Shown here: positions 13,998 through 18,282 of the stretch, piece by piece
Numbering within the stretch: position 1 is the first letter of the stretch
Layout: each line of letters begins with the position of its first letter
Assembly: GCA_938029215.1 (NCBI GenBank)
Contig: CALHFG010000046.1
Coordinates: 1-64,000, forward strand
DNA: 64,000 bases
Reading direction: 5' to 3'
DNA from: an uncultured Acidimicrobiales bacterium
Lineage (GTDB): Bacteria; Actinomycetota; Acidimicrobiia; Acidimicrobiales; SZUA-35
Made by a program: the position numbers and the translations under genes
Notes under the pieces: model-generated
Told to the model about the DNA's origin: nothing
Databases searched by the model: none
Seen by the model: the letters and a program-made list of their open reading frames with translations, nothing else

Positions 13998-14567
13998 CTA
14001 TTTGACCGCAACCATAGGACGGGCGTCCTCGATGAACTGACCGTGTCCAGGAGCGATCGTCTTGATGCGATCTTTCTTGACACGCGCCGGAATATCGGTG
14101 GGGATTCCGTCCTCGAACAGGTCGCCGGCCAAGATCGACCGTTCTTGTTCGAGGATGTAGACGAAATCGTCGCCGGTGAGCGACAGGACGCGGATCACGA
14201 ACTCGGTAGCGTCGATCTTGTCGCCTTCGCCGATCTCCTTGTCGGCTCCCGGGAACCCGGGTGCCGCCCACAGCTCAGCTCCGGTCTTTTCTTTCAGGGC
14301 CACGGCCCCAGCTGCGTACTCGTCGGACGTTTTGGTCATTACGATCCAGCGGATTCGATCGCCGCCGCAGCCACAGATGACATCGAGGTGGTCAACGTCG
14401 CCCGGACCCGGGTCGACGATAACGATCTCGTCGATGCCCACGAGATAGGTGTTGAGTCCTGGTTCGCCGTCGGGTCCCTGGTGAGCGATCCGACGCAGCA
14501 GCGGGCTGAGGGCTCGGGCAACACCCGGAATGATTGGTGGCGGTGGTGTTGGTTCTTCGAGTGGCAT
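13998..14567 (-). CDS. Metallo-beta-lactamase-fold protein lacking the metal-binding HxHxDH motif
   Basis: The 189-residue protein follows the LACTB2-like plan: GLNTYLVG (38-44), IVDPGPGDVDHLD (50-62), AAGAVALKEKTGAELWA, AGDLFEDG and APGHG. At the metal site, where the family reads THTHxDH, this protein reads TKTSDEY (78-84), so all four ligands are replaced. The later GHT histidine is also missing (LSLTGDDF). Asp149 and His175 remain. A non-enzymatic role or altered chemistry is likely. The start at ATG 14567 has AGAGGAGAG just upstream. It is downstream of fxsA on the same strand. Confidence 0.75.
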   Translation of the reverse strand: MPLEEPTPPPPIIPGVARALSPLLRRIAHQGPDGEPGLNTYLVGIDEIVIVDPGPGDVDHLDVICGCGGDRIRWIVMTKTSDEYAAGAVALKEKTGAELWAAPGFPGADKEIGEGDKIDATEFVIRVLSLTGDDFVYILEQERSILAGDLFEDGIPTDIPARVKKDRIKTIAPGHGQFIEDARPMVAVK

Positions 14568-14608
14568 TGGACTCTCCTCTAAGCGCTTACGAGGTTCGAA
14601 AGAGGAAC

Positions 14609-15106
14609 TCACGTGAGTTCCGGGGACGATTGGTTTTTGGCGGGACGTTGATCGGGTGCGAGATCGGTATCGATGACGTCACCGCGTTGGGTAAATGGAT
14701 TGGCGCCCGCGCCGAACAGACCACCCATCGAGCCGACTGATGAGGTGAACTGACCGCTCACCCGATGGGCGAGCAGCGAGCGAATCGGCCCGATCTGGAG
14801 CAACGCTCCGACGACCGCCGTGACGAATCCGGGGAGCATGATGAGCGCTCCACCCAGAACTGCCAGAACAGAAGACCCGATGCTTTTTGGGACACCGGCA
14901 AGACCGTCGGGTGGCTGGCTGAGAGAGGTGGAAGCCAGCAGGGCGAGGCGGGTCTTGAAAATCCATGCCCCAACCACGCTGAGCAACACGAACAATGCAA
15001 TAGTACGGAGAACGCCAAGAGCGTTGCCTACGGCAACTAGCGCGACCACCTCGAGTATCGGCAGCAATAGGACTGCTACGCCTACGAGTCCTGACTTCTT
15101 CCCCAT
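14609..15106 (-). CDS. fxsA: FxsA family membrane protein
   Basis: Cytoplasmic-membrane protein of the FxsA family (E. coli FxsA overproduction relieves F exclusion of phage T7; the normal role is unknown). From the ATG at 15106 it is 165 residues. Helices lie near residues 6-24, 27-47 and 75-105. The conserved core has LPILEVVALVAVG, VVGAWIFKTR and GGALIMLPGFVTAVVGALLQI, followed by a soluble C-terminal tail. The start choice drops 29 upstream codons that would approach selA. It is divergent from selA with about 105 nt between starts. Confidence 0.88.
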   Translation of the reverse strand: MGKKSGLVGVAVLLLPILEVVALVAVGNALGVLRTIALFVLLSVVGAWIFKTRLALLASTSLSQPPDGLAGVPKSIGSSVLAVLGGALIMLPGFVTAVVGALLQIGPIRSLLAHRVSGQFTSSVGSMGGLFGAGANPFTQRGDVIDTDLAPDQRPAKNQSSPELT

Positions 15107-15211
15107 CCGTACTAAGGATACCGGAACCAGCAACTTCCGGTACAACGGGCGGGTGGGCGATCTCATCGACCCCGGCCGCCAAGGTCCAGCCAAGAGTCCT
15201 ATCCTTCACGT

Positions 15212-16567
15212 GTGAGTGAGATCGTGACGGGTGGCAAACCCGACGCCAGCGACCGAGGCCAGCCCAATTCAGGGAACCGCCCGCCGTCGGTTGATCGACT
15301 CGCTCGGTCGATCGCCTCGTCTGGGCTCCCCCACACGTTGTGCGTCGAGGTGGCCCGTGAGGCAATCGATTCTCAACAAATCGACATCGTTGACCAGCTT
15401 GCCCGTATCCGCCTCCGGCAGCTCTTGACGCCGGTCATCAACGCCACCGGCACGCTATTGCACACCAACCTCGGTCGAGCGCCCGTAAGCATTCGGTCCC
15501 AAGCGACCTTCGCCAACGTGGAACTCGATCTTGCCACCGGCGCCCGCGGTTCTCGGCAGAGAACGATCGGCGATATCGCCGCGACGGCCTGCGGCGCCGA
15601 AGCGGCGCTCGTGGTCAACAACTGCGCGTCGGCGTTGATGCTTGTGCTGGCCGGACTCGCGAGCGGGCGCGGTGCGGCAGTAAGCCGCGGCGAATTGGTG
15701 GAGATCGGCGGAGCCTTCAGGGTTCCCGATGTAATGAAACAGTCCGGAGCCCAACTCGTCGAAGTCGGCACCACAAACCGAACGAGGCTGTCCGACTTCG
15801 CGAGCGCCTTTCGCGTCGCCGACATCGCCGTTGTCCTTAGCGTGCATCAGTCCAACTACAAGATCTCCGGTTTCACCGAACAGACCAGCGTTACCGACCT
15901 TGCGACGCTGGGAGTACCCGTCATCGCCGACATCGGTTCCGGGCTGCTCGATTCTGGTTGTCCGTGGCTCGATGGTCCACCGCCGGCATGGCTTGCCGAG
16001 GAACCCGCGGCGCGGCAAACACTCGAGGCCGGCGCTGACCTTGTCCTGTTCAGCGGAGACAAGCTGCTCGGCGGACCCCAAGCTGGCATCATCGCAGGTC
16101 GACGAGACCTCGTTGAACAATGCGGGCGGCATCCCCTGGCCCGCGCTCTCCGTCCGGGCGGACTCGTGATCGAAGCGCTACAACAGACCCTGCTGGCCTA
16201 CCTCGAACGTGACCACGAGGCAATCCCCTTCTGGAAGATGGCAAACGAATCCCAACCGTCGGTTCGAAACCGGGCCCAAGCCGTTGCCGACTCGATCAAC
16301 AGGACCAACGAGACTGGCGACCCTGCCCACCCCATGGTGAAGGTCGTCGACACCGACAGCGTTCCCGGTGGTGGCACCCTCCCTGGGCGCACAATTGCCA
16401 GCGCGGGGATCGCCGTAGCGCGGGATATCACCGAACAGCTTCGCAACTGGGACGTACCGATTGTCGCTCGGGTCCAGGATGGGCGCACCATCTGTGATCT
16501 CCGAACCGTCGATCCTTCCCAAGAGCCCGATCTCATCGATGCGCTCGATGCGGCTCTGCATCCATGA
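15212..16567 (+). CDS. selA: L-seryl-tRNA(Sec) selenium transferase
   Basis: PLP enzyme that converts Ser-tRNA(Sec) to Sec-tRNA(Sec) using selenophosphate. The 451-residue length is typical. Diagnostic stretches are NATGTLLHTNLGRAP, the PLP-lysine motif SGDKLLGGPQAGI, and VEVGTTNRTRLSDF. GTG start at 15212. It overlaps selB by 4 nt, forming a selAB operon. selD (selenophosphate synthetase) and a tRNA-Sec gene are not visible in this window and would have to lie elsewhere in the genome. Confidence 0.96.
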   Translation: MSEIVTGGKPDASDRGQPNSGNRPPSVDRLARSIASSGLPHTLCVEVAREAIDSQQIDIVDQLARIRLRQLLTPVINATGTLLHTNLGRAPVSIRSQATFANVELDLATGARGSRQRTIGDIAATACGAEAALVVNNCASALMLVLAGLASGRGAAVSRGELVEIGGAFRVPDVMKQSGAQLVEVGTTNRTRLSDFASAFRVADIAVVLSVHQSNYKISGFTEQTSVTDLATLGVPVIADIGSGLLDSGCPWLDGPPPAWLAEEPAARQTLEAGADLVLFSGDKLLGGPQAGIIAGRRDLVEQCGRHPLARALRPGGLVIEALQQTLLAYLERDHEAIPFWKMANESQPSVRNRAQAVADSINRTNETGDPAHPMVKVVDTDSVPGGGTLPGRTIASAGIAVARDITEQLRNWDVPIVARVQDGRTICDLRTVDPSQEPDLIDALDAALHP

Positions 16568-18282
16568 CGGTCATTGCGACCGCGGGACACGTCGACCACG
16601 GGAAGTCCACCCTCGTTCGAGCCCTCACCGGCACCGACCCTGACCGCCTCGCCGAGGAGAAGGAGCGGGGGCTTACGATCGACCTTGGCTTCGCCAATCT
16701 CGGATTGTCCCGCAAGCGATCGCTCAGCCTCATCGATGTGCCGGGCCACATCCGGTTCCTTCGCAACATGCTGGCGGGCGTTGGAGCCGTCCAAGGCTGC
16801 CTCTTCGTCGTCTCCGCGACCGAAGGATGGAAGCCCCAGAGCGAGGAGCACCTTCGCATTCTCGACTTGCTCGGCATAGAGCACGCGGTGATCGCGGTCA
16901 CCATGGCAGATCTCGTCGATAGTGAGCTGCTCGAGCTGGCAATCCTCGATATCGAAGACCACGTAGAGGGCACGTTCGCTCAGGGAGCGTCGATCATCCC
17001 GGTTTCCGGAGTCACTGGAATTGGAATAGATGACCTCAAAACCGCCTTGGCTGATCTGTTCGACGCCGTCGGCCGGGCAAAAAACCGAAAGGCTCCGCGC
17101 CTTTGGGTTGACCGCTCATTTGCTCCAACGGGGACCGGCACCGTGGTCACCGGAACCCTCATGGACGGCGAATTGGCCGTGGGTGATCACATCACCGTGA
17201 TACCGACCCATGACCAGGGCCGGGTTCGAACACTCCAGACCCACCACACCTCGGTGGAGTCGATCAAGCCCGGCAACCGAGTAGCCATCAATCTCAGCGG
17301 CGTGAACCACGCAGCTGTGCGGCGAGGAGATGTGTTGGTTCACCCCGACCGATGGCACAGCGCATCAATCATCGATGCCGAGGTGCGCGTGCTTCCTCAA
17401 ATGCCGCAGCCGCTGACTCGTAAGGGTGCGTTCGTCGCCTACATCGGGTCGGGCGAGTTTCCGGCCCGGGTGCGCCTCCTGGGCACCGTCGAGCAGATTG
17501 AGCCTGGTTCGAGCGGCAAGATCCGGCTCTACCTCGACCGTCCCGTCCCCGCGTTGCCGGGCGATCGCTTCATCCTTCGCGAGTCGGGTCGATCTCAGAC
17601 TGTCGGTGGTGGCCGGTTCCTCGACGTCGATCCGGTAGTCCCTGCCAAGCGCGCCAACCCCGACGGCCATCCCGACCGTGTGGTCGCCGAGCGCGGATGG
17701 ATCGAGGCATCGTTGTTCGCCAAGCTCACCGGCGAGGAGCGCCCTGCAACGTTGAGCAAGTGGATCGTAAGCCCAGAAGCACTTGCCACAACCGAAACTG
17801 CTGTCCGGGAACGGATTGCCGCTGCCGGTCAGCTCGGTCTCGATGTAGCGCTCCTCGACGACCGCGAGCGGGCGGTCGTGGAAACCCGTGACGACATCGT
17901 GGTCAGCGACGGACAGGTAACGATTGGCGAAGTCGTCTCAGAATTTTCCGACCACCCGTGGCTCGCCGAATTGAACGAAGATCCCTTCCACCCCATGAAA
18001 CCGGACGAGGTCGACCTCGACCGCGGCGAAGTGCGGGCCATGGTCCGGCAGGGGCTTGTAATAGAAACCGAAGGGATCTACTTCAGCGCCGCCGCAATCG
18101 AGCGAGCAGCAGATCTGCTTCGTGCTCGACTTCAAGAAGCGCCCGAAGGCGTTACTGTCGCCGACGTCCGAGACATGCTCAACACGAGCAGAAAGTTCGT
18201 CTTGGCACTGCTCGCCCACTTCGATGCCAACGGCCGGACCCGCCGGCGCGGGGACTATCGAATCGCGGGGCCGCGACTCTAG
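16564..18282 (+). CDS. selB: Selenocysteine-specific elongation factor
   Basis: GTPase that delivers Sec-tRNA(Sec) to the ribosome at UGA codons marked by a SECIS hairpin. The N-terminal EF-Tu-like G domain has GHVDHGKST (8-16) and DVPGHIRFLRNM. Beta-barrel domains 2 and 3 follow, and C-terminal winged-helix repeats (residues about 380-572, ending GDYRIAGPRL) bind the SECIS RNA. Length 572 is slightly short of E. coli SelB (614). ATG overlaps the selA stop. No gene in the window shows an in-frame UGA with obvious continuation, so the client selenoproteins are elsewhere. Confidence 0.96.
   Translation: MTVIATAGHVDHGKSTLVRALTGTDPDRLAEEKERGLTIDLGFANLGLSRKRSLSLIDVPGHIRFLRNMLAGVGAVQGCLFVVSATEGWKPQSEEHLRILDLLGIEHAVIAVTMADLVDSELLELAILDIEDHVEGTFAQGASIIPVSGVTGIGIDDLKTALADLFDAVGRAKNRKAPRLWVDRSFAPTGTGTVVTGTLMDGELAVGDHITVIPTHDQGRVRTLQTHHTSVESIKPGNRVAINLSGVNHAAVRRGDVLVHPDRWHSASIIDAEVRVLPQMPQPLTRKGAFVAYIGSGEFPARVRLLGTVEQIEPGSSGKIRLYLDRPVPALPGDRFILRESGRSQTVGGGRFLDVDPVVPAKRANPDGHPDRVVAERGWIEASLFAKLTGEERPATLSKWIVSPEALATTETAVRERIAAAGQLGLDVALLDDRERAVVETRDDIVVSDGQVTIGEVVSEFSDHPWLAELNEDPFHPMKPDEVDLDRGEVRAMVRQGLVIETEGIYFSAAAIERAADLLRARLQEAPEGVTVADVRDMLNTSRKFVLALLAHFDANGRTRRRGDYRIAGPRL

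Follow-up and report, generated by a model that had tools for sequence, protein, structure and literature searches.

The locus of interest in the window, i.e. the whole 64-kb stretch of DNA that was analysed, comprises, in this order, genes for an Mrp-like protein, an MscS-like protein, an anti-sigma-like protein (our own label, Pfam having given no match there), an ECF sigma factor, another MscS-like protein, a metallo-beta-lactamase (MBL)-fold protein devoid of its catalytic motif (hereafter the dead MBL), FxsA, SelA and SelB. The coding sequence of the dead MBL, a LACTB2-like protein, covers positions 13998–14567 on the minus strand, the stop codon counted, and its product consists of 189 residues with a pI of 4.6. 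The start codon ATG (14565–14567, minus strand) follows closely a Shine-Dalgarno-like GGAGAG read from the sequence at 14572–14577 (minus strand), in agreement with the ribosome-binding site assigned by an earlier, sequence-only reading of this DNA; an in-frame GTG is also present at 14612, overlapping the stop of the upstream fxsA. The latter gene (14609–15193, minus strand; Pfam FxsA, E-value 4.6e-17), whose listed TTG start may be too early, is directly upstream and co-directional, and is followed by the divergent selA (15212–16567, plus strand). The selA and selB genes lie side by side (15212–18282, plus strand) and score 398.9 and 301.6 bits, above their NCBIfam cut-offs, so that the organism probably makes selenoproteins; the only tRNA found by ARAGORN in the 64-kb window was a tRNA-Pro, with no tRNA-Sec. 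Among the 37 named family-type loci, some of which are truncated at the end of a contig, SelA was found in 33, SelB likewise in 33, the sigma factor in 29 and Mrp in 28.

Concerning the metal site, residues 78–84 of the window protein (14316–14336, minus strand) read T-K-T-S-D-E-Y against T-H-T-H-x-D-H in the intact orthologues, the swaps being His to Lys, His to Ser, Asp to Glu and His to Tyr. All four ligands of the HxHxDH motif have thus been replaced, as the sequence-only reading had stated, and its remark that the histidine of GHT is gone proved correct, too, since the histidine of the PGHAS segment has no counterpart around residues 129–134. Two ligand positions are left, Asp149 of AGD (14121–14123, minus strand) and His175 of PGHG (14043–14045, minus strand); the protein lacks five of the seven metal-ligand positions. 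There are two more losses, which the sequence-only reading had not named: AGD and PGHG are no longer separated by the GSTVVI.PPDGDM segment, and a C-terminal domain of about 80 residues is missing, the total loss in length being about a third.

A Pfam scan of the window protein gave no match, and the sole NCBIfam match was GSH_gloB (glyoxalase II) with 16.7 bits, far under the cut-off of 200.8; among 16 family members scanned with Pfam, Lactamase_B_5 was recognized in ten and Lactamase_B in eight (E-values up to 1). AlphaFold2 predicted a confident MBL fold (pLDDT 94.3, pTM 0.90), a part of this confidence being inherited, because the input alignment—68 rows with the window protein and translations from related loci—included intact relatives. 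Human LACTB2 (4ad9) was ranked first by both Foldseek (E-value 8.9e-12) and VIA-align (Z 21.0, rmsd 2.7, 175 residues aligned), residues 11–189 of the window protein aligning with the MBL domain of 4ad9, and the Z values among the matches listed (best 50), all of them MBL-fold entries, ranged from 18.4 to 21.0. By its predicted structure, the protein is thus a member of the MBL-fold superfamily from which the catalytic HxHxDH is missing. It should be pointed out here that alignment A2 (68 rows) leaves out L126, L139 and other near-duplicates, that masked positions occur in L126 and L197, both of which read through a stop that is masked, and that L143, a fragment, was excluded from the trees.

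With regard to distribution, 61 genomes were examined, the window's own and 60 relatives; of the 37 belonging to the window's family, 36 were found to have an orthologue, the only exception (G035) being 81% complete and split into 980 contigs. The intact HxHxDH was looked for in these close relatives and found in none of the 36 family orthologues, the window protein included, so that a lone variant or a sequencing error—the outcome that would have undone the sequence-only reading—is rejected; other families of the order do have intact homologues. The 80 named loci are assigned by name to Acidimicrobiales (52), Acidimicrobiia without an order (11), the class Actinomycetes (7), sources without class or order (8) and other orders (2), the last two, named Bifidobacteriales and Thermoanaerobacterales, being taken for misnamed bins. 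The winged-helix domain at the C-terminus is absent in all 36 family orthologues, which are 188–195 residues long and end after PGHG, and a profile of intact C-termini detected this domain in 20 of the 21 longer dead copies. Short dead forms are present in other families of the order, too (L037/L124, L114, L140, L142 and L182, in f24, f44, f51 and f57). L182, with 209 residues, was grouped with the longer dead forms in the 102-protein tree described below and with the short ones in the AU test, which did not reject a single clade of short forms (p 0.42); it is thus not claimed that the C-terminal domain was lost several times independently. A natural single-ligand variant was also seen (L215 of G114), i.e. 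a resident MBL-WH protein intact but for the first motif histidine, replaced by glutamine (TQTHPDH).

The dN/dS values were 0.035–0.158 for 13 chosen close pairs (dS 0.54–1.70) and 0.03–0.458 with a median of 0.195 for all 259 family pairs with dS 0.2–1.5, many of the latter being near saturation. For the same reason, the medians of the family (0.195), of the intact copies (0.32) and of the longer dead copies (0.065) are not comparable between the groups. At the 20 loci where each of six genes of the window could be compared, the median identity to the window was 68.8% for Mrp, 65.4% for the dead MBL, 64.9% for the sigma factor, 61.6% for SelA, 60.1% for the MscS-like protein and 58.6% for SelB. 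As judged from these sequence comparisons, the dead MBL is under purifying selection and conserved about as well as its neighbour genes. Several positions, among them P14, A17, R18, L20, I45, I48 and G66, are fixed in the dead proteins, 36 of them short and 21 longer, and more variable in 50 intact ones. The conserved stretch is already seen in some intact copies (e.g. L121), and its presence in the dead proteins therefore represents retention and no new invention.

Elsewhere in the order, which the named hits indicate to be Acidimicrobiales, an intact LACTB2-like enzyme is encoded at the same locus; the intact orthologue tested (L102) was recognized as Lactamase_B plus BLACT_WH. In the tree of 102 proteins, based on 134 columns with the motif columns removed, the dead proteins form one clade (27 rows, support 97/92) nested among the intact resident copies, i.e. 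those at this locus, outside of which the long paralogues form a clade of their own (24 rows, 100/99). In a separate tree of 89 rows, the dead row L142, having an end branch of 2.92, is positioned apart from the other dead rows, and the intact and dead rows are split in one step in just 24% of bootstrap trees. Taken together, the tree and the shared neighbours indicate that the dead and intact proteins at the locus share a common descent. The representative of the long paralogues in the window's own genome (L051), located elsewhere than the window, is an intact relative of 338 residues that contains HTHTDH and PGHT and matches BLACT_WH; the HxHxDH motif is present in all 26 long paralogues fetched.

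Where the resident copy was fetched, the long paralogue accompanies it in 53 of 64 dead-copy genomes vs 1 of 102 intact-copy genomes, this one (G362) being a MAG of 540 contigs. The genome with the single-ligand variant (G114) was kept out of the dead count, which gives 64, and the 102 intact-copy genomes consist of 82 (83 rows, since G224 has two copies; none with the long paralogue) and 20 added by a profile search, the added orthologues being intact in all 20 cases. Profile matches with E-values up to 1e-26 were obtained in 162 genomes, 13 of which are unclassified: G063, G112 and G147 have the long gene, the match in G112 being the long gene itself, and the unfetched G083, G100, G189, G190, G204, G257, G291, G305, G399 and G412 are all absent from the list of long-paralogue genomes. 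A strict mutual exclusion of the intact resident copy and the long paralogue was dropped as G362 has both, and since the dead copies cluster in the tree, only a small number of evolutionary events may underlie the pattern. The dead-copy genomes in which the long paralogue was not found are G008, G010, G018, G087 and G092, 94–97% complete, as well as six MAGs of 55–84% completeness (G004, G024, G030, G105, G284 and G302), in which, due to their incompleteness, the absence may be false. From the window's own family, they include G004, G008, G010, G018, G024 and G030, five of which are also without a second, distant Nudix gene; the latter gene, located in the window's genome at G000:C15:24305-25024, was not found in seven of the 37 family genomes. 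The long MBL and the second Nudix thus tend to co-occur, which suggests a shared pathway, and the dead copy persists in genomes having neither of them.

Concerning the upstream neighbours at loci with enough flank, the MBL has a Nudix gene upstream at 13 of the 20 intact loci vs 2 of 38 short dead and 1 of 15 longer dead loci. Among the short dead loci, fxsA was found on the same strand within 1.5 kb upstream at 34 of 38, and it is the immediate neighbour, no Nudix intervening, at 32 of these; the corresponding figures are 15 of 15 and 14 for the longer dead loci, and 18 of 20 and 7 for the intact ones. Over all dead-copy loci with enough flank, this corresponds to 49 of 53 within 1.5 kb, 46 adjacent and 45 with a gap below 60 nt. 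Outside the order, a phylum sample of 29 loci includes 22 with Nudix and one with FxsA at a distance of up to about 1.5 kb from the MBL, so that Nudix and MBL look like the older pair and FxsA like a neighbour at the level of the order.

Several explanations may be weighed for a protein with such a history. That it is a decaying relic could be argued from the loss of whole segments and of the C-terminal domain; the 36 orthologues contain no internal stop, however, their dN/dS is low and 61 positions are invariant among them, which makes decay highly improbable. The sequence-only reading, which spoke of a maintained pseudoenzyme instead of a decaying gene, is borne out here by the presence in nearly all family genomes, the purifying selection and the conserved neighbourhood. 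It had also considered a changed metal, and a hydrolase, residual or with a new metal, could in principle use Asp149 and His175—retained in 34 and 33 of the 36 family orthologues, respectively—together with the new residues, which are often polar. None of the four replaced ligand positions has a fixed residue, however: position 79 is occupied by D in 23 orthologues, Q in five, and K, N, E and S in two each, positions 81 and 83 are even more variable, and the four ligand columns have an average entropy of 1.90 bits vs 0.89 over the protein as a whole. The replacement residues are unlikely to make up a new metal site as they vary among the orthologues, and the longer dead proteins of one clade have lost the Asp in all 15 cases and the His in 13. 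As the substitutes differ from species to species and neither of the two ligands left is fixed, the changed-metal site was rejected, and a residual hydrolase as a whole is considered very unlikely. The same variability bears on the point made there that a conserved TKTSDEY would support a new subfamily: a family with the motif lost in 36 of 36 members does exist, but TKTSDEY itself is not conserved.

The remaining two explanations involve a partner. The dead MBL might pair with the live long paralogue as the inactive half of a heterodimer, as in CPSF100/CPSF73 and INTS9/INTS11, precedents taken from PMC4819959 and PMC7980224; the frequent presence of the long paralogue in dead-copy genomes is suggestive only. 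The long paralogue was not found, however, in 11 of these 64 genomes, and the five that are 94–97% complete weaken a simple dead/live heterodimer. Moreover, the 116 long-paralogue genomes divide into 38 with a dead copy, one with an intact copy and 77 without an identified resident copy, the long form thus doing without the resident protein there; such a heterodimer therefore appears unlikely. The protein could, alternatively, be a cytosolic partner of the membrane protein FxsA, an idea to which we give slightly more credit, without regarding it as likely. It is in line with the tight co-directional arrangement described above and with the detection of FxsA in 22 of the 23 dead-copy genomes that were searched, among them G008, G010 and G018, which are without the long paralogue. 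On the other hand, FxsA also occurs in 32 of 45 genomes without an identified resident MBL and, where the resident copy is intact, in 10 of 12, fxsA lies likewise upstream of most intact copies, and the protein evolves fast in the window's family, where tblastn with the window FxsA recovered 18 of 37 loci with a median identity of 32.4% compared with 37 of 37 and 63.8% for the dead MBL. An obligate FxsA pair is thus weakened by the frequency of FxsA where no resident MBL was found. In the FxsA search behind these genome counts, the E-values were 2e-9 to 5e-22 in 11 family genomes, where the protein is more diverged, and 3.3e-26 or better in the other matching genomes, except for G378 with 1.2e-20.

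The loss of the ligands, the retention of the predicted fold and of the locus, the purifying selection and the near mutual exclusion among the classified genomes are established, and the reading that we favour as probable is that of a true pseudoenzyme: a LACTB2-like MBL whose metal site was lost in a lineage with an intact long paralogue and which has been kept for a putative binding role. The ancestor would have been a LACTB2-like MBL adjoining a Nudix gene, and its dinuclear metal site would have been lost where the second, longer paralogue could take over the enzymatic job and make the resident catalysis redundant. The dead protein may then have been kept as a binder, either a protein–protein adaptor or a binder of a small molecule, RNA or DNA binding being unlikely for such an acidic protein (median pI of 4.56 over 36 orthologues). 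Candidate binding parts are those that have stayed fixed, i.e. residues 14–27 (PGVARALSPLxRRI), the hairpin 41–48 (YL(V/I)GIDEI) and residues 60–75 (H.....GCGG..I.WI). Somewhat more tentatively, with the balance slightly against it, the dead LACTB2-like proteins could represent an undescribed non-enzymatic family of Acidimicrobiales with a putative conserved binding function that predates the loss of activity. If so, the surviving natural series—intact copies accompanied by Nudix, dead ones that still have the C-terminal domain, truncated dead ones, and dead ones lacking the paralogue—would let one watch an enzyme turning into a pure binder.

In the partially covered open-access literature, no bacterial dead LACTB2-like family was found described, which is weak evidence of novelty, and the dead MBL-fold proteins found there are eukaryotic RNA-processing subunits. 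What the present locus offers are intact, intermediate and fully dead orthologues in one bacterial lineage, with the presence of a live paralogue tracking the loss, and the matched proteins make the question of what stays when an enzyme dies testable by comparison. The best fold match of the window protein is LACTB2 (4ad9), a human mitochondrial endoribonuclease (PMC4770246); compared with it and with the bacterial LACTB2-like MBLs having BLACT_WH, the protein is without most metal ligands and without the C-terminal domain. According to PMC4819959 and PMC7980224, CPSF100 lacks key motif residues, the crystal structure of its yeast orthologue showing no metal, and INTS9, termed a pseudoenzyme, has NYHC in place of HxHxDH; both thus resemble the window protein in having lost the motif 2 ligands and kept the MBL fold. 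Both, however, contain a beta-CASP domain and pair with a live protein, whereas the window protein is a 189-residue MBL domain alone, and some dead-copy genomes are without any paralogue found. Two MBL paralogues with differing metal sites per genome are known also from RNase J1/J2 of Staphylococcus epidermidis, where, according to PMC7864078, RNase J2 retains one metal ion and still acts as an endonuclease, unlike the window protein with all four HxHxDH ligands replaced. Finally, PqsE from Pseudomonas aeruginosa, found among the Foldseek matches of the window protein, is a bacterial MBL-fold protein that works via protein binding, complexing with and solubilising RhlR (PMC9715718); it is, however, an active thioesterase, whereas the site of the window protein is gone.
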